A stretch of DNA of 37,833 nucleotides, taken from a virus. The notes beneath the pieces were generated by a model. It was given only the letters and a program-made list of their open reading frames with translations, did no database searches and was not told the origin of the DNA. Location: IMG/VR virus record IMGVR_UViG_3300021371_000047, positions 1-37,833 of that record, one strand, 5' to 3'. Shown in pieces: positions 8,958 through 35,973 of this stretch. Within the stretch, counting starts at the first letter, position 1; every line of letters starts with the position of its first letter. The position numbers and the translations under genes are program-made.

Positions 8958-8965
8958 TATTTATT
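8958..8965 (-). promoter_or_regulatory. Late promoter box AATAAATA
   Basis: The minus strand reads AATAAATA in the short gap after the giant gene, just overlapping its stop codon. It is 20 nt before the ATG at 8937, with SD AGGAAAC in between. It matches the core TAAATA of the other boxes in this window. Inference: late promoter for the 204-aa and fibre genes. Confidence 0.5.
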
Positions 8966-14900: not shown

Positions 14901-17900
14901 GTTTGTATCAAGAGCAAATTGTTGATCAATAATAATATCACCAACTTCGAACTCCTGCTCACCAATTTGAGCAACGTTTACATCATTTTCAAAGTCAATA
15001 TATCCGTCCCATATATCAATAATTGTTTGTTCTTTATTTAAATCTTCAAATGTAAATCCAACTGTAGAAATTTCGTCTGACGAATCATCATTTTTATTCA
15101 TGTAGAAATTAAAACTATCGCCTATTTCTGTAGTAAATTCTTGTCCAACTCTTACTAAAAATTTATTACTTAAATTGTCAGGAGAACTAATTTGTTCAAT
15201 CATACTTGCTCTACGATTTTCTTGTAAAAAATCACCAATTAATAATTCAGTGTTGCTTATATTATAATATGTATTTCTGTTTTTTGTTTCTTCGCTATAA
15301 TTTTCTTGCTTGAATAGATCAGCATATACTAAACCTTTGCCTTCTTCAAAGTAAGTTTCACCATTATTATACTGTGCTACATCTATTTTCCAGAATCCAT
15401 TAAATTCTTCTTCAAATCCGTATTCTACTTTATTATAATCACCTAATAATTGTATTTCATTTGTTGTTTGATTTTCTACATAAGCAGAACCAGATGCATT
15501 AAGTACACCTTTGATATCTTTTAGATATACAACTGCATTACTTGCATCAATTGCTACATAGTCGACTGTTGCTGTACTTGCTCCAAGATTAGTTGTAAAT
15601 AATCTTACAAAATCGCCAACTGATGGTGTTTTAGCAATACTAGTAATAGTAATAATTGCTTCTATTTTAGATGCAATTGTATGATTATTTTCAATTACTG
15701 CTTTATCAAGTCCGCTTACAGAATTGTTCCACGGAGAATATACTATATTGTTATTAAGTTGTGTCTTTTCATTCCATTTAAGACTTATTACGTCACCAAC
15801 TGAACTACCTTGGAACATATCCGTAGGTGCTCTTAGTATAAAATGATCTACATTAGTATTTGCTAATCCTGGATTACCAGTACTTAGTAAATTTATATTT
15901 GTATCTGTAGTGCGATCAATAATCTGTGTGTAATTATCAAACGTACTAAATGTAGTTGCATCTTTTTTACTATTAATACTTGTGTTTGCTTGCCATAATG
16001 TTTCTTTGTGTTTTACAATATCCCACTTGGTGTAATTTTTTGTTTCTGCAAATTCACCTTTATAAAAAGTTTTTACTGCGCTTGCATTTGGTACGCCAAC
16101 TGCTAGATATTTTCCGTCGTGTGATGCAGAAATACTTTCGCCATAATTTGATTCAGTGCCGTCATAAAAATCATTAGAATTACCTAGTGTTTGTGCTAAT
16201 CCTAAATCATCGTTATCTTGATTACGTCTGTAGTAGAACACTTCGCCGCCATCGCTACTAGGTGATGACACATATACTTCTTTGTTATCAGCAGTAACTG
16301 AAATCGACTTTGTAAATTCTTGATCAATATCTGCTAGGTTAGAAGAATCTTCTAAATCATTTGGATTGTATTCTTGTGTAACTGAATTATAAACTGGCTT
16401 GTTGTCTAATACTGCCCATGAGTTATTTTCATAGTTGTCGATCCAAACTCTTTGATTGTCAAAAATACTATTTTGTGCAATGTTATTATACTGATCAAAA
16501 TCTTCTACTCTTACAGTTCGTAGTACACTTAAACTATATTCTTCATCTGTAAAATCTAAAAATTCATTTGTTTCAGGTATAGCAATAACAATAGTTTCAT
16601 AGTCAATTGTTACTACTTCAAAGTAACCGTATACAGAATAAAGTTGTGCACCAGTAATTGCAATTAAATCTCCAGCTACAATTGAATATAGTGAATTTTG
16701 TCTAACTGTAAGTGTTGCTGTTGTTCTATCGAATTCGTCTAACTCAGTATTAACAAACATTTCTCTTACAACAAATTGACTATCTACAATTTGAAATACT
16801 GTCCAATCGTTGGGTGTTTTATCCGTAATCCAAATATACTCGCCTGCTGTAAGTTGATTATTATCAATTACTTTAAGGTCGCTAATTGATTGTGTTTTGT
16901 ATTCTACATCATCTTCGTGTACATATCCTCGGCTTTCGGTAAATTCTTCTAATACCTTTGTTGGAAATAATTCTTCAGTAGTATCAATCGGTTTATCTAA
17001 TAGTTCGTGTGTGCGGACTCTGTATACTGTGTCAAATACATCATTAGGCATATAATCTAAAATTTCAATTGCTTGTGGTGATTCTCTAAATTTAGATTCA
17101 TCTAGTGGTATTTCTATTTGTTCAACGTTTTGATATGCACCATACTTGCCAACTTGCACTGCCCATTCTTCAAATACTTCAACGCTGTTAGATTCGCCTC
17201 TTAAACTATTAAAGAAATTATCAATAGAATTCATCGTACCTTTATCTTGTAACATACCTTGATAAAATTTATACTGAGATACATCATCGTTAATAATATT
17301 AGCAAGATAATCACGCTTTTGATATCCGATTAAATGCTGTGCTAATTTATTTTGTTGTTCGTCAAAACCGTCGCTGTCAATATCATAATAATCTGCAAAT
17401 TGATTAATTCTATAATCAAAGTTTGTAATTAATTTAGACTCTGGTTTATCGTTTAGTCGTGTCCAGTAAGAATAATCAAAATCTTTTGTACCCGGAGCAT
17501 TATATTTGGCAACATAATAAAATTCTTTGTTCTTTACAAGACTACCAATTTGGTAATCCTGCCATGGTTCCCATTCAGTTAGTTCTGCATCATCATAAAC
17601 AAATCCTGGAATATTTAAACTACCATTCCAGTTGTCACTTCTATATCCAATCAACTTTAAACGTTCTTGTCTATAACCAGTACTAGGCTGATAAATTAAA
17701 TCGTTAAACACTGTTTCGTTATCAATAATTACAACATGTTCTTTTTGTACAAGTGGTAATTTTACATTATAAATTCCATTATCAGAATTTTTAACTGTTA
17801 AACTAAAACTGTTATTGTCACGTAGAATACTACTAAACTTTCTGTTTAATGGCTGTGCATTTTCGTCAAGTAAACTATATCTATAAAAATTATCATATAT

Positions 17901-20900
17901 ATCATCAACAACTGTAAAGTCTCTTTTAAATTCAACTTGAAATGCTGCTGGGCTTAATGCAATTGATGTGCCATTTGCCCATCCTTGCGCAGTCCAAGCT
18001 AAAAATTCCTTTGCTGCATTTGTCCAGTTAGTAATTGTTTCGCTTTGTTCGTCAACATAGTTAAATTCAAATCCGTTAACTTCTAAATATCGTCCATAAC
18101 CTATTAATAAGTCTATAACGTCTTGTAACGTTTTTAAAACAGTGCCGTAGTTTATTTCTAAAACAGTATTATACTTAAATTCTTTTTTAATTGTTCCCCT
18201 AGTTCCACCTACTGTTGGAATTTCAGGAATCTTTGTAATATTATCGTTTGTAAATGTATTTCCACTAGTAAAATCACTTGTAGCACGATATAGATTAGAA
18301 TCATTTACAATGATTTGTCCTTTTACATAAAATTGTGCAGGTGACCAATCTACTGAAGTTTCAAGTGTACCACCAATAACGATATTTGCATCTCTATTTG
18401 TTGTTACAGGGGCATAATATTTAAACGATGGCTCGTCATCATTGTAACCACTTACTATATAACCAGTTGTTGACTTTTCAATCTTTACTCCGCTGTATAC
18501 AATACTGTCAACAGGTGAACTTGTATTTGTATACACAGTAATATTTTCATCTGGTACAAAAATATTAGCAGTATTTTGCGCAGCTGGATTTTTACTATCT
18601 AACACAATGTTTAATTTTGTCTTATCTGTATATCCTGCTAATCTAAATGCAACTTTATTTTCTATTGATCGTATATCAGTTTGAAATTCGTCATAAGTTT
18701 TTAATACGTTACTTCCGATTAGAGCATGTATAAAGTTTACAACTCCGCTAGTTAATACCTTAGTTGTATCTTCATATGTATTAGGAAATATTAAATTTTC
18801 TAGTTCAACATGTCTGCCTGTGTTAGAATAAACTATTTGATTTGCAAGATTTTTTGTTGTTCTCGATACATCAAATCCTAATGCTAAGAATTTAGCAGGC
18901 TGATTTAGTAGCATAGCTTTTACTAAACTAAACGGATATTCACTACTGTTTCTCCATGCTGCTTCTACTGGTGCATTATCGCCAAATTTAAATGCGCTAT
19001 TAGTATCCCTAAGAACTGTGTTTTTTGCATATCCGCAACTAACGGGAGATAATAAATGTCCTTGAGAATCTACAGGAATAATACTAGTTAATCCCGGACG
19101 TGCATATTTTTCATTAACTTGTATTAATAAATTAGGATCTTTAATTCTACCTTCTTCTAAATCTTTCCAAAGTATATTATTGTTACTTGTATATGGTGCT
19201 TTACCATAAGTGTCTTCCCACCATTTTGGTTTAATTGTTAAACCAAGCATTTCCCAAGGATGTGTATGAGGACGATCAGTATCATATAATTCTAAAAATA
19301 CACCTCTCCAATATCCTGGCAAAAATGCACCATCAATAGAACTAGTTGACTTGCTATAATTAAACGTAAATTGGTCTTGACTAAAATAAAATTTATTAGA
19401 AGTATAATCTATGCCAATATTAGTATTCCATGTGATAAAGTCTTTAAGTAAAATTCGATCTAATTTAGACTTATTAATTCCTTTTCTAAATTTACCGCTT
19501 ACAAAATCATCTTTATTAAAAATATTTGCATTATAATTTGATTTAATATTATTAAAAATTCTTTTTTCTAATTCTAAAAGTAGATTGTCTCTGTAATCTT
19601 CATATGCTAAAATTCGGCTACCGTCATGTCCAATAATTATTGCTTTGCCAACTGGATATACTGGTATAGACAAACTTGCGCTTTTAGAGCATACATACAA
19701 AGATTTTGGTGCAAAATAAATTCTGCTACTACCGTTTATTTCAACTTGAGTTACTTCGCCATTACTGTCAGCAAGTTTTGCCGCAGAGCGATCAACATAT
19801 AAAGGATAGAACCATCCTACTTTTTTACTAGAAGTGTTTTGACCATAAAGCTGATAAGCATCTGCTGTGTTTATTTGATTTTGATTTGATAACCATTCAT
19901 CATCACGAACAATCTGTGGTTCATAACTAGGGTATAAGCCTAGTTTTGTTGGTGTAGGCGGTACATACGAACCATCCGTATTATTATATTCGTAAACTTC
20001 TACTACATCATTAATTTGTTGTGCAACTAAAAGTTGTAGAAAACTTTCGTCTGTAAAAATATAATCTTTGTTATGAATTAATTGTTCGCCGTTAAAATAA
20101 ACTAACACTGAGCTAGTATTAAGCGTTTTTAAATTAAAATTTGTGCTTAATGGATAATAAGTATTTGCATCATCAAATATGACATATTCATTTCTTATAT
20201 GTCCTTTGTATCCGATCATATCTGAGAAATAGAAAGGCTGTGTTTTAGTTTTATCTTTGTTTAGCTCTTTGATAATTGCATCAACATGCTGTTTTACTTC
20301 ACCGTCAAAACCTAATGTTTCTGAAGTTTGTAAAAAGTTTCGTTTAAACTTATTATATTCTCTCATAGAATATTCTATAGATTTAATAATATTGTATTTT
20401 TTATCTAATGTAAGATACATTGGTAAATTAAGCGGACCTGAATGTTTTACAAAACGTTTGCCGAAGCGATCTAAATCGCCTAAATCTTTTAAGTTGCTAT
20501 ATCCTGGATAAACACCATCGAAATCACTAAGGTCGTCTATCATAGTTTTTACATGATCATTAACTTCGCCTAATGTAAATGTAGATACGTCAGCATTTAA
20601 CGGATTTTTTTCTAAATTAATCGGAAACTCGTAATATCCATTTTCGTTTTTAGAAGCTGACGATTGTGTTTTTATAACAACTAAATCGCCCACTTCTACA
20701 TTATTAGAAAATTCAACTATCAGTCTATTATTATTTTTTATAAGTGTATATAGATTTTTATTCTGTATAATATTATTAACAAACACTTTAACATTTAAGT
20801 CAGTAATATTTGTAGCATTATCATAAACGTCAATTTCAAAACTAGTTTGTTGATTAATTGATGCTTGATATTCTCTAACTACTGGTTGCTTTGATACATA

Positions 20901-23042: not shown

Positions 23043-26000
23043 TAGTAGTTACTTCCTTCGTCATTATTATTTGCAACATTATTTCCTATTGGATTATATG
23101 TTACTGAAGTCGCATCGTTTGCACCTGTGACTATTGCTGCGCCAGTATTTTGTACAACTGTAGTTGTTGCACTACTACTTGGTAAAGTAGTTGGTGCATT
23201 TGTACTTCTAGTTTGTACACCTTGCATTGTACTTGATATGCTTGTAACAACTAGTCCTGATGCTTGTAAATTAGTTGCTGTATGCTCATCAATTATTTCA
23301 ATATCATTTACTGTTGCAGCACTTAAAAATATTTCATTAGATTCTGATTTTATTTCAAACAAACTACCAAAAACTTGATCGACCTGCTTTGGTACAACAA
23401 CTATGCTAGATAAGTTAGGAGATAAATTATTCATAATATAAGAACTTAATTCTTGGAAATAAAATGTATCACCAAAGTCCCAATTTTCAATTGCAAAGAA
23501 TTGATTTATTAATTGCACGATTGTAGACTTTAATTGATTATTATTAACTGCAACACCTTTGTTTTTAACAACTTTAAATGTTACTTGTAATCTTGAATCA
23601 GCCTTTTCGCCAAATAACATTTTATATGTTACTGGATGAAATACTACTTCGTCGCTTATACTTTTTATCTGGTTTATACTAGCACCATAGTTTCTAAATA
23701 GTTCATCAGAACTAGGAGGCAAAGGTAAAGATGTGATTCCGCCGTTTACATATTTTCTAACCTGTGTGTCATAATCTTTTGTAAGAACATATGTATCTAA
23801 AATATTACTACTTGCTGGATCAATTCTATAATTAGAATCTGCAACATGCACATAATGAAATTTTAATCCAGCTCTGCCAATAAATGCTCTATACTCGTCT
23901 GTAATTGTCATGTTATTTTGTGCTTTATTAAGGACTTTAAATAAATCAAAGTCTACTATATAAAATACTTGTCCATCAACTTCGGCATTTACGTTAATTG
24001 GATCAAGCGCATCGTTTTGTCTTACTTTAACAATGCCCTCAGAATTATCAAAATACTTATAATCTTGTACGCCGTCTACTGAGCTATACTTCTTTTGGAA
24101 TATAAATCCAGTTTCATCAACGATTTCTTTAAACAGTTCGGGATTATCTGAAATTCCATCATCGTCGCTGTCATAAAAAGCTAACTGTACACGACGAGTA
24201 TCATTATATCCTTCTGAGTCTTTGTATGCATCAGAAATACTCCAGTCAAAATCTTTATTAAAAGCACCGAGACTATTTGGTTTTGTGTTAATGTTTAAAA
24301 TAGTAATTTTGTCTTGTGCAATTTTACCTGTTTTTGTATCATATACCTTATCAGCACTATCAAAGAAAAATCTTACCTCTGAATCGCTTTCAAATACGTA
24401 TCTTAAGTTTCTATAACTTACATTAAATGTTTGTCCGTCAGTTTGAAAATAAAATACCCAACTATTATCTTGATTAGATCTAGAAATATCTCCTTGACGT
24501 TGTAAACTAAACGGTGCATATGTATTTAGATTATCACTAGTAATAAGTTTCCACTCACTTGATGTCTGATCAAATCTTAATGCAAAATCTTTATAAGCAA
24601 ACGCTCTGTCAATAATTTGTTTTTTTACATCGTCTACAATAGCAGTTGAATATTTTGGTAAAATTTGATTTAGAATTGCGCCATTTGGAATTACATCATT
24701 AAACACAATAGGTCCAAAGCCGTCATCATCAACAACTGTGCCATCTGCATCAATTGATTTTACAGTAGTCCATACATAATCACTGCTTCCTTCGTGATCT
24801 GCTGTGCCTAACATTAGTTTACCATTTTTCATAAAATGATATCCTTCTGGAGCTGTAAATTTACACATTGCTCCAGTTTTAATATTTTTTAGTGCATTAG
24901 TTGTATATGTACCTACACTATAAACACTAGATGCTGCTTGGTTTCCATTAGCACTTGTAAAGATTTCTGCTAAGTCTAGAATTTGTTCAAAATATCCTGT
25001 TGATCTGTTAGTCTTCGAAGTAGTTTGTCTCCATACTGCATTAAGGTCAGTAGTGTTTACTTTGTCAAAGTTTTCATTGTAGTAATTTTGTACACTAGTA
25101 CTTGCAATTCTGCGTTCAACTTGACTGTAAATGATACCTTCAATATCTGATTGTGTTGTAAATGAAAAATTAAAGTTTTCTAAATATTCTTGTCTATACA
25201 AAACTCCATCAGATGCAAATAAACTTGTAGTTGAATATTTTCCAGTTGGATCTGTTAAATCAAAGTATCTACTTATTCCACTTGAAATTCTATTCACTGT
25301 TTTTGTTTTTATAATATCTTGATCAATTCCTAAAGGTCCAATATTATAATCTTCAGCTGTTACTAGTCTGTTTTGAGTGTAATAACTTGCAGGAGCATTT
25401 TGTTTTATATCTTCGGTAGTTTCGCTAGGACGCCCGTTTGACACTGTATTTTTTAAGCTAAGACCAATTGTTAATGTTTCTTGTGCATTATTTTTGCTAA
25501 TGTACGGAATTTGTATTGTAATAGATTGCAGACTACCAGGATTAATAACCATATTTCTATTATCACTAGTTCTGTAATATGTTCTAAAATTACCAGTTGG
25601 TAAATTACCAAATACACCATCGCTAAACACTAGATTAATTCTATCGTCTGATCTTGTTGAAACTGCATAAACATCTTTGGTATCTTTAAACAAACTATTA
25701 TAGATAATATTGTTTCCTTCAACCGATTCTAATTTTTTCCACAACGCAGATTCAAAATTATTTGAGTCAACTGAATATAGCCATATATCTGAATTGTTAA
25801 TATTAGTGTCATCTATTCCTACAATTTGGTTAGGTACCGGATTACCGGTGCTAAAAGATGCATTTTCAAGTTGTCCTTGTTTAAAGTGCATAAAGAACCC
25901 TGTGTTAGAACTTCCAGCGCCCTGGCTATCGTCTCTATATACAAATGCAGGATTATTACCAGGTAATGGTGCTTCTTCTACAATAGTTTCGTTTTCGATC

Positions 26001-26653
26001 CCTGTACTAACTATTTCAAAACGTGTGTTTACGCCTTCTACTGGCTTGCTAAATCCAAACACTGGAATGTCGGTGTTTAGAGCATTAAATCTATACTGTT
26101 CTGTCACAACGCCTTCGATATTTGCTGTTATTGTAGGTGATCCAACTCCTTCTGCATTCGGAAGGGCTGCATTAATAATCTTAACAAATTGTTCAAAGTA
26201 ATTTGGGTTTGCTCTATCGTTCCATAAAATAGTAGATCCACGTAAATTTTTACCTGTACTATCAATAAGGTTTTCTGTTGTAGATACTGTTTCAAACTTT
26301 AGTAAGCCTGATGCAGCTTTGTTCCTTTTTGGATTATAAGAAATAAGTTTTGCAAGTCTTAATACGCTTTCTCTGCGCTCTGCTGTCTCTAAGAAATTTT
26401 CTCTAGCATTTAGGTCAATTCTGAAGGATAAGTTTTGTCCTAAAAATGCAATTAAATCAATTAGCGCAAGATATTCTGAACTTTCGATATAGTCATTAAA
26501 ATCCTCTGGATAGTTTTGACGCAAATAGTTAATCATTGTTCTGCGTAGATTGTCAAAGTCATAGCTTTGGAAATCTGCGTTACTAAAAGATTGATAAATT
26601 TTCTTCCAATCTTCAGTAGCAATTACTCGAGATTGTCTATCGGTTGATGACAT
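23042..26653 (-). CDS. gp6: Baseplate wedge protein gp6 (baseplate J-like), 1203 aa
   Basis: T4 gp6 forms the ring of the baseplate wedge around the hub. The T4-type N-terminus is clear: DFDNLRRTMINYLRQNYPED (residues 33-52), YLALIDLIAFLGQNLSFRID (61-80) and LNARENFLETAERRESVLRL (81-100), ending SYNPKRNKAASG. Near residue 421 is RLVTAEDYN, the hallmark of baseplate J proteins. Residues ~1016-1090 carry the conserved C-terminal part with NWDFGDTFYFQELSSYI. At 1203 aa it is nearly twice T4 gp6 (660 aa), with the extra length in the middle and a low-complexity Ser/Thr/Asn tail of about 60 residues. SD AAGGAA precedes the ATG, and a late-promoter box lies 24 nt upstream. Its stop overlaps the giant gene's ATG. 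Confidence 0.93.
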   Translation of the reverse strand: MSSTDRQSRVIATEDWKKIYQSFSNADFQSYDFDNLRRTMINYLRQNYPEDFNDYIESSEYLALIDLIAFLGQNLSFRIDLNARENFLETAERRESVLRLAKLISYNPKRNKAASGLLKFETVSTTENLIDSTGKNLRGSTILWNDRANPNYFEQFVKIINAALPNAEGVGSPTITANIEGVVTEQYRFNALNTDIPVFGFSKPVEGVNTRFEIVSTGIENETIVEEAPLPGNNPAFVYRDDSQGAGSSNTGFFMHFKQGQLENASFSTGNPVPNQIVGIDDTNINNSDIWLYSVDSNNFESALWKKLESVEGNNIIYNSLFKDTKDVYAVSTRSDDRINLVFSDGVFGNLPTGNFRTYYRTSDNRNMVINPGSLQSITIQIPYISKNNAQETLTIGLSLKNTVSNGRPSETTEDIKQNAPASYYTQNRLVTAEDYNIGPLGIDQDIIKTKTVNRISSGISRYFDLTDPTGKYSTTSLFASDGVLYRQEYLENFNFSFTTQSDIEGIIYSQVERRIASTSVQNYYNENFDKVNTTDLNAVWRQTTSKTNRSTGYFEQILDLAEIFTSANGNQAASSVYSVGTYTTNALKNIKTGAMCKFTAPEGYHFMKNGKLMLGTADHEGSSDYVWTTVKSIDADGTVVDDDGFGPIVFNDVIPNGAILNQILPKYSTAIVDDVKKQIIDRAFAYKDFALRFDQTSSEWKLITSDNLNTYAPFSLQRQGDISRSNQDNSWVFYFQTDGQTFNVSYRNLRYVFESDSEVRFFFDSADKVYDTKTGKIAQDKITILNINTKPNSLGAFNKDFDWSISDAYKDSEGYNDTRRVQLAFYDSDDDGISDNPELFKEIVDETGFIFQKKYSSVDGVQDYKYFDNSEGIVKVRQNDALDPINVNAEVDGQVFYIVDFDLFKVLNKAQNNMTITDEYRAFIGRAGLKFHYVHVADSNYRIDPASSNILDTYVLTKDYDTQVRKYVNGGITSLPLPPSSDELFRNYGASINQIKSISDEVVFHPVTYKMLFGEKADSRLQVTFKVVKNKGVAVNNNQLKSTIVQLINQFFAIENWDFGDTFYFQELSSYIMNNLSPNLSSIVVVPKQVDQVFGSLFEIKSESNEIFLSAATVNDIEIIDEHTATNLQASGLVVTSISSTMQGVQTRSTNAPTTLPSSSATTTVVQNTGAAIVTGANDATSVTYNPIGNNVANNNDEGSNY

Positions 26654-26709: not shown

Positions 26710-27150
26710 TTATTCAAGCATTTGTTTATCAAATTTAAATAACATTTGTTCTGATATATTATAAGGCAAAAACGTTAATAATGCACTTACTTCTATACCA
26801 TCTTCAGTTGTATCAACAAATACCTGATCTGCGGTTACCCTATCATCATAGTTTATAATTTCAGCTACATCAGCAATTATAGCTTCTTTGTTTTCAGTTG
26901 TAAATGGTTCGTAAAGCATGTCCCAAATAATTGTTCCAAAATTCGGATCGCTTAATTTTTCACCTTTTCGAATATGAAAATGATTTATAATATCTTGTTT
27001 AATAAGATCAAAATCGTATAATGCATAACCTTCAACATTTTCATTAATACTAGAAAATCCTCTATATGCACTTCCTTGAGTTACAGATTGCGATCCTCTA
27101 TTTGTAGAGACTGTAACTCTTTTGTAAAGATTTTTTTCTAATGTACTCAT
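26710..27150 (-). CDS. gp25: Baseplate wedge protein gp25
   Basis: The 146-aa product carries the GPW/gp25 core: a helical DFDLIKQDIINHFHIRKGEK segment (residues 46-65), then SDPNFGTIIWDMLYEPFT (67-84), helix ENKEAIIADVAEIINYDDRV (87-104) and a closing strand pair EVSALLTFLPYN. It is close to T4 gp25 (132 aa). gp25 anchors sheath polymerisation and joins gp6 and gp53 in the wedge core, and gp6 is the next gene here. The start follows the gp5 stop by 12 nt with only a weak AGGTAA SD, so translation probably depends on coupling to gp5. No oddities in the core residues. Confidence 0.95.
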   Translation of the reverse strand: MSTLEKNLYKRVTVSTNRGSQSVTQGSAYRGFSSINENVEGYALYDFDLIKQDIINHFHIRKGEKLSDPNFGTIIWDMLYEPFTTENKEAIIADVAEIINYDDRVTADQVFVDTTEDGIEVSALLTFLPYNISEQMLFKFDKQMLE

Positions 27151-27162
27151 AATAATATTTAC

Positions 27163-30078
27163 CTATTTGCTGTATATGTGATAATACGCACTGCGTATTG
27201 GTGAAGTACGTCTTTTTACACCTCTTAAGTATGCCGATATAACTGCTGGAGACGAAAGCCAATAATTGCCGCCGCCGCGGTCTGTACCAACAATATCAAT
27301 ATGTATAGCATTATCGCCCATATAACCATTTTTTGCGCCAACACCTCTGCCGCCGTTCGCAAAAAATTCTTCAATAAATTGTAAAAATCTAGGACTATCT
27401 TGAACAATTGTTTTGCCGGTTTTAAAATCATATATGTATATGTCAGCTGCACTTCCGTAATCGTGTCTCAGTGAGCCAGTTGCTACTTTTTGTGATCCAA
27501 CGTATCTGTTATCACCGCTTGCTCGTGCTCCTGGCGTTCTTTGCCATTCTGATTTAGGCATTTGCCCAGCACTAAATATTTCTACTTTTACATCACAAAT
27601 AGATGCAGTTTTATCTAATAATTGAATTAACTTAGGTTCGCAAGGACGATGTCTAAATTTTCCGCCAGATGGGCCTGCTTTTACAGCAGCTACATAATAT
27701 ACATTAGCAGTTTCGTCATAACCTTCTATCTTTGGCGGTACATATGGCTTAAACCCTCTAGCCTTAGCCATCGCCTCGTCCATTACTCCTTCTGAACCGA
27801 CTCTTACACTATCACCTTCGTCATTAGTCCAAACTGGTCCTGAAAAACCTTCCTCATTTGGTATGCTTGTAGCTGTTAGATCGCCGCCTGAGCCTGTTAC
27901 TCGTACACTTGCTTCGGCTACTGATGAATTTCTTAAGAAAGTATCTGGAGATATAAATCTATCAGCTGATGCTAACATTCCTGGGGCTTCTCTATCTGTC
28001 TGATCACGCTTAAACCCTAAAGGATTCATATTCTCATGATGTGGCCAAGGTTCATGTTGCGGGGCTCTCGGCACAATTGAATTATATGGTATAGGTTGTG
28101 TTACTCCTGGTAATACATAGGGTAACGTTATTTCAGGTAGTGGGCTTACTTTTGCTGGCATTTGAGGACTTCCGGCTTCGATTGCTTTTGCAGCATTAGC
28201 TGGTAGTAGTGCATCTACACCCTCAGTGGCGTCTGTTGCTGCTGCTGCTGTTGATGCAGCTGGTCCGTTAAAATGAATTTCAGCACCAGTAGATACAAAG
28301 TTAGCAGTTGCTTGAATATGTGTTTCGGCTCCACTTGTAATATGTGTACCAAGTCCTGATTTTGATTCTATATTTCTAGTACTTTCTGAAAAAATACTTC
28401 CTTCTGCTTTAGAATTTATATCAGCTGTTTTTGCTTGATTAAAAATAGATACTTCTGCAAGGCTATTAATATTTGCAGTTTTACTATGATTAAAAATATC
28501 AGTTTCTGCAATATTATGCATTTCACCAGTTACAGTTTTATTAAAAATACTTGTTTCTGCAGTATTGTGTATTGATCCTGTTGCAGTTTTGTTAAACATA
28601 TCTATACCAGCGGTGGTGTTTATATTTTCAACTGCGTTTGTTAAAATACTTATTCCGGCTCGATTGTTAATAGTACCGTCAACTGTTAATAGGTAATTTC
28701 CTGTAACATCGTCATAGATATTCGATCCGGCAGTTCTATATATCGACTGTGCTGCCTTTGTATGCAATGCACCGTCTATTGCTTCGTGGTACATATGTGA
28801 TCCACTAGACAAATGTGTATTTTTTGCAGCATTTGAAAATATACTATCATCTGCAGATAAATGACTACTGCCGCCAACGGTTATAGTATGTTCTGCACCT
28901 ACTAATAAACTTGTGTTATATGCACTTTCAATTTGCACTCTACCACTTTGTTTTTCTTGTTCAAAATGTTTTCCATCGCTCCAACGTGCTGATGCTTTCA
29001 TGTTTATATTACGACCAGCTTCTACATTAAAATCACGTTCTGCTGTAAAGTTAATATCAGTATCGCTCATAACACTTATACTATCTTGAGCATGTATGTC
29101 TATTTTACCATCAGACGACATTTCAATCCATGCAGTGCCTCTTGAATTTGCAATATAGATTAAATCTTCACTGTTATGCATCAATATCTGATGTCCTGTT
29201 CTAGTCCTAAATCTAATCATTTCATTTTGTGGAATAGTTTCGTCGCCGCCTTCTTCACTAATACGTTTGTTTACATATACAGGAGGGCCATCTTCAGCGT
29301 GGGTTGCTCTAATTAAATTCTGATCGCCGTCATCCATTACAAAACTACTACCACCTAGTCTGTTATATGGAATATCTATTCCGTCTATATCATAACCGTA
29401 TTTTGCTTTAGGATGGTCTTTACGTTTATCGAGTGGTCCAGGTGTACTCATACCAAAAACCATCGACGGTGCTTCTCGTCTAGCACTACTTGTAGTTGTA
29501 CCTCTTGTTTCGTCGTCTAACAAACCTTGTACTTGTAGCACTTCGGAAAAATCTTTATTGTAAGGTTTCTTAAAAAACTGAGGATCTGCTGCTGCACCAT
29601 CTTCTAACTTTTTATTATATTCACCTACAGGTAATTTTTTGTCTTTTAAATCTTCAGGAGTTTCTTCAGTATGTAACAGGGTAGATGCAGTTGCACCTGG
29701 CACCATCATATTCATATTATTATCTTGAATACATCCTATCCAATATCCGTATGCCGAGATGCCTTCTGCAAATATAACTAAAACACGAGATCCTACATCA
29801 GGCGGTACTGCCCAAAATCCATAACTTTTTTGTGTGCTTTGAAAATCGTCATTTTCTTTTAATCCTGATGCTGGTGTAACTCCATAAAACGGAGACAGAT
29901 ATTTGACAATCATTAATTGCCCACTTCTTTCAGGAAGATTACTCGAACTAGTACGTCTAATAAGTTCAACTTCTAACGTACCTTGCATATACGGATCTAA
30001 ATGATTTACAATAATTGCTTCATACGGGCCGCTATTGCTAATTGGTCCTTCTTGTACTGTTGTTCTTGTATAACTCAT
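27163..30078 (-). CDS. gp5: Baseplate central spike gp5 with a C-terminal M15-like peptidase and no internal lysozyme (971 aa)
   Basis: Residues ~1-130 are the gp5 OB-fold (VNHLDPYMQGTLEVEL, FWAVPPDVGSRVLVIFAEG, YGYWIGCIQD). The gp5 stem follows from about residue 290 (RFRTRTGHQILMHNSEDLIY, AWIEMSSDGKIDIHAQDSIS) and runs into a beta-helix with six 17-residue repeats (476-577). The T4 lysozyme domain expected between OB-fold and stem is missing; that stretch is an acidic linker. Instead, residues ~786-955 resemble a peptidase M15_3 domain: H872 and D879 in LRHDYGSAADIYI (the HxxGxAxD signature) and H926 in AIHIDIVG. It probably cuts peptide cross-links during penetration. The residue three before H926 is Asn rather than Glu, so activity is not certain. 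SD AAGGACA; 16 nt after the preceding gene. Confidence 0.92.
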   Translation of the reverse strand: MSYTRTTVQEGPISNSGPYEAIIVNHLDPYMQGTLEVELIRRTSSSNLPERSGQLMIVKYLSPFYGVTPASGLKENDDFQSTQKSYGFWAVPPDVGSRVLVIFAEGISAYGYWIGCIQDNNMNMMVPGATASTLLHTEETPEDLKDKKLPVGEYNKKLEDGAAADPQFFKKPYNKDFSEVLQVQGLLDDETRGTTTSSARREAPSMVFGMSTPGPLDKRKDHPKAKYGYDIDGIDIPYNRLGGSSFVMDDGDQNLIRATHAEDGPPVYVNKRISEEGGDETIPQNEMIRFRTRTGHQILMHNSEDLIYIANSRGTAWIEMSSDGKIDIHAQDSISVMSDTDINFTAERDFNVEAGRNINMKASARWSDGKHFEQEKQSGRVQIESAYNTSLLVGAEHTITVGGSSHLSADDSIFSNAAKNTHLSSGSHMYHEAIDGALHTKAAQSIYRTAGSNIYDDVTGNYLLTVDGTINNRAGISILTNAVENINTTAGIDMFNKTATGSIHNTAETSIFNKTVTGEMHNIAETDIFNHSKTANINSLAEVSIFNQAKTADINSKAEGSIFSESTRNIESKSGLGTHITSGAETHIQATANFVSTGAEIHFNGPAASTAAAATDATEGVDALLPANAAKAIEAGSPQMPAKVSPLPEITLPYVLPGVTQPIPYNSIVPRAPQHEPWPHHENMNPLGFKRDQTDREAPGMLASADRFISPDTFLRNSSVAEASVRVTGSGGDLTATSIPNEEGFSGPVWTNDEGDSVRVGSEGVMDEAMAKARGFKPYVPPKIEGYDETANVYYVAAVKAGPSGGKFRHRPCEPKLIQLLDKTASICDVKVEIFSAGQMPKSEWQRTPGARASGDNRYVGSQKVATGSLRHDYGSAADIYIYDFKTGKTIVQDSPRFLQFIEEFFANGGRGVGAKNGYMGDNAIHIDIVGTDRGGGNYWLSSPAVISAYLRGVKRRTSPIRSAYYHIYSK
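27214..27722 (-). other. M15_3-like zinc peptidase domain at the C-terminus of gp5
   Basis: Residues ~786-955 of gp5. Visible zinc-site candidates are H872 and D879 (SLRHDYGSAADIY) and H926 (AIHIDIVG), with a glycine-rich loop GGRGVGAKNGYMGD before the last one. The order and the 'HID' ending resemble the PF08291 group rather than VanX-type M15 enzymes. Confidence 0.65.
28348..28653 (-). repeat. Six tandem 17-residue (51-nt) beta-helix repeats in gp5
   Basis: Residues 476-577 are exactly 6 x 17, each unit near [SD]IFNKTxTGxxHNxAET. Examples are SIFNKTVTGEMHNIAET, DIFNHSKTANINSLAEV and SIFNQAKTADINSKAEG. The periodicity fits a beta-helical spike, with looser repeats upstream. The nucleotide sequences have diverged, so the array is protein-level. 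Confidence 0.85.
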
Positions 30079-30094: not shown

Positions 30095-32554
30095 TTATTG
30101 AATTCTTAATATTTGTACTCTGCCGTCATCAGTTTCTCGAAATGCAAATTGAGTAATGTCAAGTTTATATCTATAAATTTGCCTTACAGCTGATGCCTGA
30201 TTTCTAAAAAATTTGTCAGGTGCTGTAAGTTTTTCAATTACATCCTCAACTCGGCCTGTACCGTCATTAGCAAATCTTTTACTCGGGTGATCATATTCTA
30301 CTTCACCGCTGCGAGTTTTAATTTTAGTTTCATCTGGTGCTTCGCCAACTCTTACATTATTTTGATCAAACACACTACCGTCTCTTACACTATATGAACT
30401 ATTTACAATATCCAATAACTCTTGCCTATCGGTTGTGTTTTTTAATTCTTTTTCTTGGCGTGCTGCACTATTATTCTTATTGCTTGTACCAGAAGTAAAT
30501 GTTTCTGGTAATGGTTTATCAGTTATGCCAGTTAAGCTATCAGTCTGATTTATTATAGTAGGTATTTCGTTATATGTTGACCCTGCTGCAAACACGCCTT
30601 TCCATACATTTGATTTATTTTCTACATCTCTAAACTGATTCATATATTCATATCGTTTACCTGGGTTTGTTTCTATAAAAGGATCAACTCCGGTTGCTTG
30701 TACAAATACATTTCTAGCACTTGTTAGATCTACTTTACCTACTTTGCCTACAAAAAAAGATGCGGCGCTCTGTGCTGCAGGTATAGCTTGATTTAAGATA
30801 GCTGGATTGTTTAAAATATCTAATCCTGTAGACGATGCTACAGATTGGAATACTTTTTTTCCTGATATTCCTAAAAATCCTGCTGGTGAAAATGCACTGC
30901 CGCCATCATCTTTTAGTACTTGATCAAAAAATCTAGTAGGTGAGGATTTTAAATCAGTTAGTTGTGCATCAGAAAAGTTAGATATAACTGGTCCAAATCT
31001 ATTTCTTAATGCATTATTAGATGTTGTTGCATAAGATTTTACATAATTTGTTGTTAAGCCTGAAACGTTTTCACACATACCGACTATATTTGCGACTGAT
31101 GCTGTATCAGTTATTCCTACTTTACTTAGTTGGTCTTTTACTTGTTTTGCATTAACAAGTTTTTCTGCATCAGAAATAACTTTAGGAATTTCATCATAGC
31201 CGTGTACTGTAGGATTAGTAGAATCTTGTACTTCAGGATTATTACTATCATCCGCTACACCAGACTGAACTCCTGGTGGTGCATAATCAGGCATATCTTT
31301 TGTGGCTTTTTCTCCAAGGTGGCATACATCGCGTATTTTCTTGCCTAGTCTAAAATCATATCGATCATCTTGTGGATCTATTAATTCATATTTGTAAACA
31401 TCGTTTGCTTCAGGTAAATCAGAAGGTGTAGAAGGATAAGAATTTACACGCTTTCCTCCTGACGTTACTTGACCTGCACTTACCGCATGTTCTGTAACTC
31501 TTTTTTCAGATACTCCGACTGTAGGATTAGCTGTGTTGTCTCCGTTAACAGTAGCATCAACTCTAGTAGTTTTTCCTGTGCCACCTTTTTTTGCATCCTT
31601 AATACCTTGTAGAAATTCATCTGGTTTACCATGTGCTGAATTATCTAAAACTCCAGAATAATAACTTTCGCCTTTGGCTTTTCCGTTAACTGGCACCGGC
31701 AGAGGTATACTAGCAAATTCTTTACATAGATTTATCATAAAATCTATGTCAGTAAATTTTCCTAATTTCCATTTTTTATATTGTCTTAAATTATACAATC
31801 TCTTGATACATATTACATCTTGTATTTCAGGAGTAAATCGAGTAAAATCAATATCTAATTTAAGTGATCTAATAGTTTCAGCAAGAGGAGCCTTAATAAA
31901 CTGATATCTACCTACAGCACAACTAGTATTGCCATTACTTTTTAAAAGATCTAGTTGAAAAGTTTGCACCTGTCGTAGCGTTTTTGTTACTAATGACGGA
32001 TCAGAGCTGTTTGAATAATGTGCATTGTATCCTAAGTGGCCTGATTCGCCTTTGGCTATAAGATCTAGTAACGCTCTATCAATCGAATCGATTACAAATG
32101 CATCAAGACTTACAGGATTGTCTTCTATAGCCTCTCCTAAATTTTCACTATTTGTAATATCTAAAATTTCGTCAGTTGTTCCTTCTTTTTTTATAGTACT
32201 TGATGTGTTAAAAGAATTTATTCTTGCTGCGTTTGAGTCACCGACAATTACTGCTCCAGGGTATGCATTTCTTATATCTTCGGCACTTTGTAATTTTAAT
32301 AATTCAGGATTATTTTTACCATAATATAAATCAGTTACATCGTATGCAGTTGCACCTGCTGAAGTTGCTGCATTTTTTACCAAATCGTGTAAATCTGGAA
32401 ATCCTACTTCTGGATCGTTGTTTGGAGGTACTATAACTATATTAGTATATCCTTTTGTTTTAGCATTTTCAACAATCGCTGTTATATTCTCTGCGGTGTT
32501 AGACGTGTCATCTAAATCAGCTGTGCCAATTGCTATAATAATTGTATCACTCAT
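30095..32554 (-). CDS. Tail-associated multi-lytic protein: SGNH-like, GH104-like and GH19-like domains (819 aa)
   Basis: Residues ~1-125 resemble an SGNH hydrolase (IAIGTAD at 8-13, a TNIVIVPPNND strand, and GDSN at 105-108), though the motif order is unusual. Residues ~158-290 match the lambda-R type (GH104) transglycosylase: LLDLIAKGESG with candidate catalytic E170, AVGRYQFI (G215-R216-Y217-Q218), FTPEIQDVICI and FASIPLP. Residues ~478-605 resemble GH19/endolysin folds: MCENVSG (E495), NRFGPVISNFSD, GFLGISGKKVF (559-569), LDILNNPAIL. A second acidic residue in the GH19 part is not obvious. Lying between the hub candidate and gp5, it probably supplies the muramidase activity that gp5 lacks here. 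The start overlaps the upstream stop (TAATG) with SD AGGTGG. Confidence 0.82.
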   Translation of the reverse strand: MSDTIIIAIGTADLDDTSNTAENITAIVENAKTKGYTNIVIVPPNNDPEVGFPDLHDLVKNAATSAGATAYDVTDLYYGKNNPELLKLQSAEDIRNAYPGAVIVGDSNAARINSFNTSSTIKKEGTTDEILDITNSENLGEAIEDNPVSLDAFVIDSIDRALLDLIAKGESGHLGYNAHYSNSSDPSLVTKTLRQVQTFQLDLLKSNGNTSCAVGRYQFIKAPLAETIRSLKLDIDFTRFTPEIQDVICIKRLYNLRQYKKWKLGKFTDIDFMINLCKEFASIPLPVPVNGKAKGESYYSGVLDNSAHGKPDEFLQGIKDAKKGGTGKTTRVDATVNGDNTANPTVGVSEKRVTEHAVSAGQVTSGGKRVNSYPSTPSDLPEANDVYKYELIDPQDDRYDFRLGKKIRDVCHLGEKATKDMPDYAPPGVQSGVADDSNNPEVQDSTNPTVHGYDEIPKVISDAEKLVNAKQVKDQLSKVGITDTASVANIVGMCENVSGLTTNYVKSYATTSNNALRNRFGPVISNFSDAQLTDLKSSPTRFFDQVLKDDGGSAFSPAGFLGISGKKVFQSVASSTGLDILNNPAILNQAIPAAQSAASFFVGKVGKVDLTSARNVFVQATGVDPFIETNPGKRYEYMNQFRDVENKSNVWKGVFAAGSTYNEIPTIINQTDSLTGITDKPLPETFTSGTSNKNNSAARQEKELKNTTDRQELLDIVNSSYSVRDGSVFDQNNVRVGEAPDETKIKTRSGEVEYDHPSKRFANDGTGRVEDVIEKLTAPDKFFRNQASAVRQIYRYKLDITQFAFRETDDGRVQILRIQ
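30740..31123 (-). other. GH19/endolysin-like domain in the 819-aa protein
   Basis: Residues ~478-605: MCENVSG with candidate catalytic E495, then LRNRFGPVI, GFLGISGKKVFQSVAS and LDILNNPAIL. The GFLGISGKKVF segment parallels the G[LF]xQ[IL]TGRxNY strand of GH19-type endolysins. The Gln and Arg of that motif are replaced, so it may be diverged or inactive. Confidence 0.5.
31685..32083 (-). other. GH104 (lambda R-like) transglycosylase domain in the 819-aa protein
   Basis: Residues ~158-290. E170 in AKGESGHLGYN, the GRYQFI motif at 215-220, the FTPEIQDV segment and the CKEFASIPLP ending follow lambda R endolysin in order and approximate spacing. Confidence 0.68.
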
Positions 32555-35500
32555 TATAAACCACCTACTATTCTACCATCAACAAATTTAGCATTAGTTC
32601 CTGCAATAACACCGGTTCCTGTTGGTGTATTTGTTTGATTTGGTACACGCATTAACGAAAGATTTTGTGTAAATTGTCCATTGTTAAATGTATGTGTAAT
32701 ACCCCAACAATTAAACAGTCCACTAAACGGCTTTACTAGTTCAGGCATTCCCATTGTAAAAACTCCGTTCAGTTGAGGATAATCTAAAGGTGTTCTGAAA
32801 TTTATTACAATACTTAAATCTTGGTATCTAAAATCAGCACGGCCATCAATAGACAAATTCTTTCCAACTAGTTTTTTTCTTTTATTTCCTGCATCACTTG
32901 GCAAGTAATACGGATCTCCCCAAATTGACAAATCAGCTGTGACCATATTAAGAGGAGAATTTATTAAATTTGAATAGTGTTCTTCTGCTCTATTACGTTT
33001 TGCTAATTCATCAGGATTAGTCGACTTTTTTGCTCCATTAAGAAAGTTTGATTCTTGTTTTATACCTAGTTCTACTGTTGATGTTAATTCATTTTTTTCT
33101 CTCGAATTAGCACCTTCGTATTTTTGATCTTTATCTCGCTGAGCACTTAGTGTAGCCTCGCCTGCACTAACTGCGCCTTTGTTAAAATCAACTAATACTA
33201 ATTCAGTAAATGCATTGTTAAAATTAATATTAAAATCTAAAATATCTTCATTTTTTCCTGAATAGATGTAGTTGTATTCTTTATCAGCACTTGCTTTTCG
33301 TTCAGGTATTGCTGTCGGAGCTTCTTGTGCTCCTTGTATTTTTGATTCATCAATTTTATACGGAACAACACAGTACACATAAGTCATTCTAGGACGTCCT
33401 AGGTCTGGATTAATTTCTTCTTCATCTTCAATAAAAACCATTTGTTCTATTTTAAAATAATCTATCATACCTGCTTCGGTTTTTTGTAAATCATGTACAT
33501 ACTGACAATCAATAGTTACATCAGTAATAATACTCGAAACTCGATCTCCTTGTCCGTATTGATAAAATTGTTTATTAGAAAATTCTGGAATGTCGGGAAT
33601 ATCGTACTCTATTCCGAAATTTCTAGAAAGTTCACTTTCAGTAGGTTTCTGAGCAGCATTTCTTGTGCGGGCATTATCGTCAAGTACAGCACTAAGTCCT
33701 ATGCTATTGATATTTTCAGGTCTACTACCCCATATTTTTAAATTTCTAAAATACTTTGCTGATTTTGATGCTGTACGTTTAGCAAAAATTTGAGATTGTA
33801 TATCTTGTGCTTGATTAGTACGCCCTGACATTACAGCTTCGTTTTGTCTAAATTCTAAAGCACTATTTTTTGTCTCAGCTATATCTAAAGATTTATTTCT
33901 ACGTCTACCTTCTTGATCATAAAATTCCATAACTTCAGCTTTTGATGCATTAACATTATCTAGCGCATCATAAATATCTCCAGAATCATGTGGGAATAAA
34001 ATTAAATATCTATCATACCCAGAAATTAATTGCTTATCTTCAGCATTTTCAAATAATGAATTAATTGATGCTGTTATACTGTCTTCACTTGTTTCTAAAA
34101 CTTCATGTACTAGCCTACCTGATGCAGATATATCAGTTTTTATTTGATCAACTCCATCTTTAAATGCAACTTCAGAATAAATTACTGCTCGACATGAATA
34201 CTTACTACCAGATCCGTCAACATCAAACTCTACATTAGTAATCATTATAGGAAGATAACTTGGTACAATTTCATTTGCAGTTAGATTACCCAATGCATCA
34301 TAACCTGCAAATTCTATTTTTAGACAAAATGGTAAGTTTTGAAAACTGCCGAATTTTAATTCTTTTGCACTTTCTCTAATAACTTCTAAAAACTGTCCCA
34401 TTGAATACGGTTCAATAATATCAAACGTTACAGCCGTGCCTAATGTTATGCCAGTGTTTTGATTAGGAGCTACAGCAGATTCAATACTTACATTGTCAAT
34501 AAAGAATTCCATATGTCCGCCTAAGTCTTCTTCCATTTGAGTTTGCATTTTTATATCTGTCTGGCCTCCTCCTGATTTACATATGATGCGCTGTAGTCCG
34601 TTTTTAACATATTCATCTGGAAAGTTTAGTTCTTTAGGAGATAAGATTCCTAACGAAATAATATAATTGTAACTATTGTATTCTCTTAGTTTATTACCTA
34701 ATTTTCTTGATCCATCTGATCCAGATTTAAGTGGAATGTTTAATTTTGTTAAAACTGATTCTACTGAACTATAATTTGCTGTTAAATCATTTGTTATATT
34801 TTCTATTTTTTGAAATGCCTTTGTTGCAAATGCCTCAACATCAGGATTTATCCAATCTGACGGATTGTACAACTTAATATTTTGTGTTCCGCCAAACGCT
34901 CCTAGTGTTTGCCCAAATGTTTTTGAAATAGCATTGCCAAATACACCGCCTAATCCTACATTATCTAGTACATTTAATTTATTACCAATTACATTAGAAA
35001 TTGCAGCGCCAGCAAGACCTTTTGCAATATCTTGAGGGTTAGATTTAGAAAGTTGTGTAGCAGAATTAATTAAATTTACTCCTGCTGATAATTTTCCTAA
35101 CGGTGAACTTGTATTAGATAACGTGTTAAAAGAACTTACTGTATTCATTAACGGACTTGTTGCGCCGAACGAGTTTAGAACGTTAGACAAAGGTGTTGTA
35201 ATATTACTAATTGAAGTAGGAACTCCAGGTATCGCCACATTAGTTGCATACCCCATTCTTTTACTAATTTGATCAACTCCTAAGTTTCCAAACTGAGAAT
35301 TTATTGCTGTGTTTAGACTTGGTATTTTTCCGGCTAATGCAGACACGCCAGCTGCGGCAACAACAGACGTTGCATTTAAGCCTGCTATTGCATTTGGCAA
35401 TTTTGGACTTATTGTTTTTTTAGCAGAATCAACTAACGATTGTACTGCATTAATATTAGGATCAGTAGCGGTTACTGTTGTTGCTAAAAATTTACTATTT

Positions 35501-35679
35501 TCATCAGTAAGCTCACCTAGCGAAAGATTTAAGTTTGAACCTAAAGAGCTTTTTAAGCCTGTTGCTGTTTTGTTTTTTATACTATTTGCACTTACTGCTT
35601 GAGTAACTGTTGATGTGCCTTTTGATGCACTAGTTACCGCAAGAGCACTAACTGCTAAATTTAGTAAATTCTTTGCCAT
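32554..35679 (-). CDS. Putative baseplate hub protein (1041 aa)
   Basis: No clear T4 homologue is recognised by eye. The first ~330 residues are rich in Ala, Ser, Thr, Asn and Gly, with short hydrophobic runs (SVVAAAGVSALAG) and a repeated NTLSNTSSPLGK style; they may be an extended or membrane-active tail. From about residue 335 the protein is globular (NSYNYIISLGILSPKELN, DVDGSGSKYSCRAVIYSEVA). The C-terminus has GLFNCWGITHTFNNGQFTQN followed by LSLMR, which fits the closing strands of tail hub proteins (gpD/gp27 class: W.V..V.H.F..G.FTxxLxLxR). Together with its place between gp53 and the lytic/spike genes, this suggests the gp27-like hub role. It follows gp53 directly (TAA then ATG) and overlaps the lytic gene. 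Tail structural: likely; hub: moderate. Confidence 0.8.
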   Translation of the reverse strand: MAKNLLNLAVSALAVTSASKGTSTVTQAVSANSIKNKTATGLKSSLGSNLNLSLGELTDENSKFLATTVTATDPNINAVQSLVDSAKKTISPKLPNAIAGLNATSVVAAAGVSALAGKIPSLNTAINSQFGNLGVDQISKRMGYATNVAIPGVPTSISNITTPLSNVLNSFGATSPLMNTVSSFNTLSNTSSPLGKLSAGVNLINSATQLSKSNPQDIAKGLAGAAISNVIGNKLNVLDNVGLGGVFGNAISKTFGQTLGAFGGTQNIKLYNPSDWINPDVEAFATKAFQKIENITNDLTANYSSVESVLTKLNIPLKSGSDGSRKLGNKLREYNSYNYIISLGILSPKELNFPDEYVKNGLQRIICKSGGGQTDIKMQTQMEEDLGGHMEFFIDNVSIESAVAPNQNTGITLGTAVTFDIIEPYSMGQFLEVIRESAKELKFGSFQNLPFCLKIEFAGYDALGNLTANEIVPSYLPIMITNVEFDVDGSGSKYSCRAVIYSEVAFKDGVDQIKTDISASGRLVHEVLETSEDSITASINSLFENAEDKQLISGYDRYLILFPHDSGDIYDALDNVNASKAEVMEFYDQEGRRRNKSLDIAETKNSALEFRQNEAVMSGRTNQAQDIQSQIFAKRTASKSAKYFRNLKIWGSRPENINSIGLSAVLDDNARTRNAAQKPTESELSRNFGIEYDIPDIPEFSNKQFYQYGQGDRVSSIITDVTIDCQYVHDLQKTEAGMIDYFKIEQMVFIEDEEEINPDLGRPRMTYVYCVVPYKIDESKIQGAQEAPTAIPERKASADKEYNYIYSGKNEDILDFNINFNNAFTELVLVDFNKGAVSAGEATLSAQRDKDQKYEGANSREKNELTSTVELGIKQESNFLNGAKKSTNPDELAKRNRAEEHYSNLINSPLNMVTADLSIWGDPYYLPSDAGNKRKKLVGKNLSIDGRADFRYQDLSIVINFRTPLDYPQLNGVFTMGMPELVKPFSGLFNCWGITHTFNNGQFTQNLSLMRVPNQTNTPTGTGVIAGTNAKFVDGRIVGGL

Positions 35680-35973
35680 TTAGATTCCTAAACTTTTTTG
35701 TAAATTATTACCTTGAGGAAGATATATTTTTGTTCCTGCTACAAAATCAAATATTGGATCTTTTAGTATGTTCATATTTCTTTGTGCAAATACCCACCAA
35801 AGATCTTTTGACCCATACAGATCATTCGCTAAAAGATCAGGTCTATATGTGTAAACATTTGTAATTTCATATAGTATATCAGTCGGTGATGACGGAACTG
35901 GTCTCGGAGTAAAAATATCTAAATATCCTGCTGCGGTAACTTCTGTTGATCCATAAAAACTAAGTGTTGACAT
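35680..35973 (-). CDS. gp53: Baseplate wedge protein gp53 (short form, 97 aa)
   Basis: The product has the conserved gp53 core: ITNVYTYRPDLLANDLYGS, DLWWVFAQRNMNIL and DPIFDFVAGTKIYLP. This is also a LysM-like layout ending in a TKIYLP strand. It is half the length of T4 gp53 (196 aa) but keeps the part that recurs in marine T4-like phages. gp53 clamps adjacent wedges and binds gp25 and gp6, which are encoded downstream. The start overlaps the upstream stop (TAATG), so it is translationally coupled to the tube-cap-like gene. Confidence 0.88.
   Translation of the reverse strand: MSTLSFYGSTEVTAAGYLDIFTPRPVPSSPTDILYEITNVYTYRPDLLANDLYGSKDLWWVFAQRNMNILKDPIFDFVAGTKIYLPQGNNLQKSLGI

Follow-up and report, generated by a model that had tools for sequence, protein, structure and literature searches.

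A T4-like baseplate operon of an uncultured jumbo-type phage encodes a probable cell-wall entry protein with a GH104 domain, a GH19-like putative pseudo-lysozyme and a motif specific to the hub locus

The DNA analyzed here, hereafter the window, consists of 37,833 bases from an uncultured virus and carries a T4-like baseplate operon on its minus strand. In the order of transcription, this operon encodes v255, a gp53-like protein, v1041, the protein studied here (the slot protein), a gp5-like protein, gp25, gp6 and a 4692-aa structural protein (Table 1), while a late sigma factor gene lies in the opposite orientation. The slot gene starts with a 1-nt overlap with the upstream stop codon and ends 16 nt short of the gp5 gene. 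An initial annotation, made from the sequence alone, had described an open reading frame at this position in a baseplate region without stating its strand; the frame is exactly as described, is read from the minus strand and lies among T4-like baseplate-hub genes. The motifs quoted in that annotation are all found, in the order E170, GRYQFI (residues 215–220), FTPEIQDV (241–248), ASIPLP (281–286), E495 and GFLGISGKKVF (559–569).

Table 1. Genes of the operon and features of the slot protein (window positions; residues are those of the slot protein).
Feature	Position	Strand	Remarks
Slot protein gene	30095–32554	−	819 aa, runs 32554→30095; hub-slot ORF
gp5-like baseplate hub/spike	27163–30078	−	971 aa; OB domain, DUF2345-like part, M15-like C-terminal domain
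v1041 virion structural protein	32554–35679	−	1041 aa; upstream of slot gene; phrog_11190
gp25-like baseplate wedge	26710–27150	−	PF04965 1.1e-7
gp6-like baseplate wedge	23042–26653	−	phrog_10646 2.7e-293
gp53-like baseplate wedge	35680–35973	−	PF11246 1.3e-4; phrog_7145 6e-24
v255 structural protein	36740–35973	−	First of operon, from window end
Alpha/beta N-domain, residues 1–135	32150–32554	−	Motifs GTAD ... PELL ... GDS107 ... EGTT
GH104 (lambda R-type) domain, residues 153–330	31565–32098	−	PHROG, hhalign, aligned Glu
Catalytic E170 codon	32045–32047	−	Aligned to lambda R Glu
Disordered linker, residues 344–457	31184–31525	−	AF2 pLDDT below 50
RYDF box, residues 385–414	31313–31402	−	VYKYELIDPQDDRYDFRLGKKIRDVCHLG; proposed hub-docking motif; invariant core in alignment A5
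GH19-like putative pseudo-lysozyme, residues 462–656	30587–31171	−	Profile and fold matches
V497 codon; V505 codon	31064–31066; 31040–31042	−	At the two catalytic Glu positions
E495 codon	31070–31072	−	Two residues from catalytic position V497
C-terminal domain, residues 722–817	30104–30391	−	Mostly beta, unknown type; AF2 pLDDT 73–88

Downstream of gp6, the 4692-aa protein is encoded in a single open reading frame (8964–23042, minus strand) that matches phrog_10938, a virion structural protein. Three consecutive fiber-type proteins (2512–4035, 4074–5960 and 5957–8323, minus strand) match phrog_15511 and phrog_14394 with their N-termini, and this common part is possibly an anchor. The third contains a Phage Tail Collar domain and the first gives a weak Peptidase_G2 match. 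A 309-aa open frame on the plus strand (6615–7544) lies antisense to the collar-fiber gene, and nothing marks it as a gene.

The arrangement gp53/v1041–slot–gp5–gp25–gp6 also occurs in Atu_ph07, Phosso and Paride. The gp6 gene was used as the synteny anchor for the locus search, which recovered relatives; in the IMG/VR relatives L001–L006, the slot protein is 66–96% identical and the gene order is the same, and in distant relatives with 35–43% identity the order of the domains is unchanged. A profile scan of viral contigs with N-terminal patterns only returned no additional slot relatives. Searched as a whole, the slot protein has no matches in Pfam or NCBIfam, and PHROGs assign it an endolysin family at residues 160–355 and an unknown family at residues 552–604. 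The full-length AF2 model is modest (pLDDT 64, pTM 0.32), so its use was confined to domain boundaries, disorder and GH19 fold matches.

Judged by sequence comparison, residues 153–330 are a GH104 domain with an intact catalytic glutamate. The PHROG endolysin match reaches 5.5e-14, and in hhalign the profile built from 14 slot proteins matches lambda R across 149 columns (probability 95.7%, E 8.4e-9); the initial annotation had already recognized this lambda R-like part. Against the PDB, the lambda lysozyme structures 3d3d and 1am7 are among the three matches of the slot profile (0.011–0.012), with E170 falling on the lambda R Glu without gaps. Lambda lysozyme is absent from the Foldseek top 50 of the full-length model, in which the GH104 active-site loop (residues 173–186) is poorly modelled. 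In a wide sample, the E170 column holds Glu in 68 of the 71 relatives readable there; the three exceptions carry Asn and belong to a single lineage (contigs L028, L030 and L166). Among the folded domains of the slot protein, GH104 has the lowest dN/dS, with 0.056 against L006 and 0.121 against L004. The corresponding values are 0.029 and 0.102 for the RYDF box, and 0.184 and 0.310 for the GH19-like domain, 2.5–3.3 times the GH104 value.

The GH19-like region had likewise been proposed in the initial annotation, and both family and fold bear this out. Its profile matches 4ok7 (the SPN1S endolysin) at 8.3e-10 and some 28 further GH19-type structures in the PDB, and the top four Foldseek matches of the full-length model are GH19-type phage endolysin entries, the best being 7r6s, 4ok7 and 8p8e (probability 1.00, E 1e-3 to 1e-2). 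GH104 and GH19 are both lysozyme-superfamily folds, so that the earlier description of two unrelated folds does not hold. For GH19, this placement is also given in the literature (PMC12329726). The catalytic Glu had been taken to be E495, a candidate that we dropped because the gapless alignment puts Val at the catalytic position: the GH19 Glu pair falls on V497 and V505, and E495 lies two residues off. In the references with an intact site (L007–L009, the BUCT-ZZ01 hub, L068 gp5 and SPN1S), the first Glu aligns with V497 and the second on or adjoining V505, with the upstream helix free of gaps; L068 gp5, L007 and L008 keep the pair. In PaGH19Lys, the structural equivalents of V497 and V505 are E51 and E60, the proposed catalytic residues of that enzyme, and E60Q nearly abolishes its activity (PMC12329726). 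Both Glu are replaced in all seven sequences of the slot architecture that were checked, with I/V, V/V, I/L or K/V at the pair in relatives of the same architecture. Because the Glu pair is gone there, we read residues 462–656 as probably a pseudo-lysozyme, likely with a role in binding or scaffolding. In the literature on decayed tail lysozymes, we found nothing specific. The GH19 motif GRGFxQxTG looks canonical in L028 and L030, and also in L110, which is related to them.

The N-domain, for which AF2 gives a confident model (pLDDT 88, pTM 0.86), had been called an SGNH-like head. Part of this claim finds an echo in fragment matches of its first half to positions 65–146 of 178 in PF13472 (1.3e-4 in L028, 2.8e-4 in L030 and 0.004 in the window), but these are weak, below the cut-off and confined to the C-terminal half of GDSL_2, and the catalytic set is broken. 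The motifs follow the order block III, V, I, II, which resembles a circular permutation. There is no SGNH protein in the Foldseek top 50 against the PDB (best E 0.029), a search with a sequential aligner that handles permutations poorly, and no significant SGNH match in BFVD, where a cyanophage ACG-2014d protein scores best (2.1e-5). A PF13472 search in the contigs of three relatives returned none, as expected from so weak a similarity. In the window, Ser107 is kept, the block-III Asn is replaced by Ala12 and the block-V His is missing. In the lineage with Asn in place of E170 (L028:4482–6905, L030:2624–5050 and L166:5557–7093), the Asn and His motifs are kept and the Ser is absent, with GDH in L028 and L030. 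The complete Ser/Gly/Asn/His set is thus found neither in the window nor in L028 and L030, and the domain is at best SGNH-derived. At the other end of the protein, the C-terminal domain is shorter in the alignment for L004, L028 and L030. The string DKPLP (residues 679–683, window 30506–30520, minus strand) is invariant across all three-domain relatives, and in some short slot proteins (L125, L032) similar KPLP/KKLP strings lie close to the C-terminus.

Within the linker, which AF2 predicts to be disordered, lies the RYDF box, with the consensus Y.Y..IDP.DDRYDF..GKK.RD. Among all open reading frames of the first loci, this motif is restricted to slot proteins, including four in which no enzyme domain is recognized. 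IMG/VR was scanned with a degenerate DNA pattern for DRYDFRTG, which returned 82 stretches. All 78 open reading frames with the motif had hub-operon genes nearby, and a GH104 domain was detectable in 73 of them; since the contigs include several near-copies and the pattern was taken from the slot family itself, these figures measure the specificity of the motif and not its full breadth. The RYDF box marks a hub gene slot, and this appears to be new.

The content of the slot goes together with that of the gp5 C-terminus. Counted as distinct gp5 sequences of the clade, in numbers that include related sequences, rest on few independent events and are not to be read as a probability, slots with GH104 and the RYDF box stand beside a gp5 tail with an M15-type profile or zinc motif in 37 of 38 cases and beside a muramidase profile in none of the 38, and RYDF slots lacking GH104 stand beside a gp5 tail with a VgrG3-like muramidase (PF21277, ~1e-30) in all five complete loci; two further such loci are truncated by the contig end and lie outside this count. 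The paucity of events follows from the gp6 tree, on which the three-domain slot type forms one clade, the RYDF-only type forms another, and the GH104+RYDF and CHAP slot types show four changes each. Beside CHAP slots, three gp5s carry Phage_lysozyme2 plus an M15-like tail, and at two CHAP loci (L062 and L068) gp5 is lysozyme-like and GH19-like, respectively, by inspection and alignment. Loci with neither slot type have a short gp5 without such domains in 22 of 27 cases. GH104 slots thus go with M15-type gp5 tails and GH104-less RYDF slots with VgrG3-type tails, a partition that, like the motif, appears to be new; we found no description of either in the open PMC literature. The VgrG3-like domain, known from the T6SS, sits on a phage spike at the gp5 C-termini of L036, L039, L040 and L045 (PF21277, ~1e-30).

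For the window itself, the statement that gp5 lacks lysozyme was right, in that no Pfam lysozyme domain is matched and the lysozyme-on-gp5 arrangement of T4 is absent, but it overlooked the M15-like C-terminal domain. This region (~800–971) contains an H...D...H pattern (HxxxxxxD ... H) that is invariant in alignment A6, and four of its seven PDB matches, including the top three, are M15-type, albeit weak (E 0.024–0.6). It has no Pfam match to M15; gp5 tails of sister lineages clearly match PF13539. In cyanophage BUCT-ZZ01, gp5 (L106:4476–7295) has a Pfam GH19 domain that follows the OB part and precedes the DUF2345-like part; its C-terminus matches Peptidase_M15_3 weakly, and hhalign finds no match between this C-terminus and the window gp5 tail.

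Several known systems resemble parts of this arrangement. The lambda R endolysin family shares with the slot protein the GH104 profile, the aligned catalytic Glu and the order of motifs; lambda R is a stand-alone lysis enzyme, whereas GH104 here belongs, with other domains, to an 819-aa protein of a tail hub operon. The SPN1S and PaGH19Lys endolysins (4ok7, 9eoi) have the same domain family and fold as the GH19-like part, yet keep both catalytic Glu where the window has Val. T4 gp5 and gp5-type hub lysozymes share the hub locus, and Atu_ph07 gp699, previously noted as a lysozyme adjoining baseplate genes (PMC6102473), is a gp5 that itself bears this GH104 domain as a fusion; in the window, the glycan-cleaving domain is instead found on a separate gene beside gp5. 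The initial annotation had considered the architecture unusual, but it is less isolated than this. In the cultured cyanophage ACG-2014d, the protein that scores best in BFVD is encoded a few genes upstream of gp5 and carries both the same N-domain (hhalign 95.7%) and GH104 (97.3%), with an extra N-terminal region and no RYDF box or GH19-like part seen in its sequence, and the N-domain is also present in cyanophages S-SSM4 and S-SSM6b. The pairing of N-domain and GH104 is therefore recurrent, and we no longer regard it as unique. Likewise, the baseplate hub protein gp15 of Anabaena phage A-1(L) has three wall-degrading domains (PMC10966104). It resembles the slot protein in uniting several such domains, directed at glycan and peptide, in one hub protein; its domains are of other types, two of them were shown to be active in vitro (PMC10966104), and the likeness drawn here is one of domain content. 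The virion hydrolase HydH5 (PMC3150257) and the T6SS effector TseP (PMC11893102) are likewise single delivered proteins with two types of wall-cleaving domain, but both of their domains are reported active and only one in the slot protein keeps its residues; this likeness, too, is one of domain content. The slot protein is a variant of known multi-domain hub or virion wall hydrolases, and we found no earlier account of its motif or of the partition in the open PMC literature.

From these comparisons, we consider it likely that the slot protein associates with the baseplate hub of a T4-like, jumbo-type phage and serves in cell-wall entry, with a working GH104 domain and two domains that have decayed. 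Glycan would be cleaved by GH104 alone, through E170 and presumably by lytic transglycosylase activity like that of lambda R, and the peptide stems would be handled alongside it by the M15-type peptidase-like domain with which the gp5 spike ends. The RYDF motif in the flexible linker may dock the slot protein to the hub, so that it would be carried with the tail tip, and glycan strands and peptide stems could be cut together upon tail contraction. The GH19-like and N-terminal domains, having lost catalytic residues, probably serve to bind wall glycan or as a scaffold, and the two might hold or position the wall. The initial annotation had suggested an entry enzyme in which one domain is active and another binding or degenerate; this fits, as the GH104 Glu is kept and the GH19-like Glu pair is lost, although it erred on E495 and went further on SGNH than the matches allow.

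Alternatively, the slot protein could be mainly a structural hub adaptor, with its enzyme-like domains being relics or wall-binding parts. The lineage of L028, L030 and L166 keeps this idea alive, because the gene is retained there with Asn at E170 and its product cannot work via GH104; RYDF-only slot proteins without a recognized enzyme domain and the lack of catalytic sets in the GH19-like and N domains also agree with it. We nevertheless regard it as unlikely, given the retention of E170 in nearly all relatives, the strong constraint on GH104 and the coincidence of GH104-less RYDF slots with a muramidase on gp5. It is also quite improbable that the slot protein is a lysis endolysin acting at the end of infection like lambda R: its GH104 is closest to lambda R-type endolysins, and RefSeq labels the ACG-2014d and S-SSM4 homologs 'endolysin', but the gene lies within a contiguous baseplate operon, the domain is fused to gp5 in Atu_ph07, the protein has five regions including a hub-locus-specific motif, and slot and motif persist in relatives that lack GH104. 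That both lysozyme-type domains are active, with E495 serving the GH19-like one in a locally shifted active site, is highly improbable: E495 is kept in most relatives (Asp in L023), and L028 and L030 have a local string VET resembling the GH19 KET as well as an intact GRGF(I/V)QLTGRDNY motif, but the shift demands that two residues be deleted before E495 and two inserted after it, the gapless alignment places V, I or K at the catalytic position, no member has the second Glu, the window group has a degraded GRGxxQLTG motif (SPAGFLGISGKKVF), and purifying selection on this domain is weaker.

Returning to the cell-wall entry protein, a broader reading can be offered tentatively, with somewhat more doubt than confidence. 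The RYDF box might serve specifically for docking to the hub and define a cartridge of wall enzymes that can be exchanged, with glycan-cleaving and usually peptide-cleaving domains shared between gp5 and the cartridge, a muramidase that moves between the genes, and decayed lysozyme domains reused for wall binding. In a large group of uncultured jumbo-type phages, the slot proteins are blank in Pfam and NCBIfam, and the RYDF box offers a sequence handle with which the wall-entry parts of these phages can be found. Related phages carry differing wall-cutting parts at the slot position, beside a shared short motif, and form a natural series in which some members have these domains on the spike and others on an accessory gene. 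Within this series, the slot protein is a candidate example of lysozyme folds that have become phage tail components without catalytic function.
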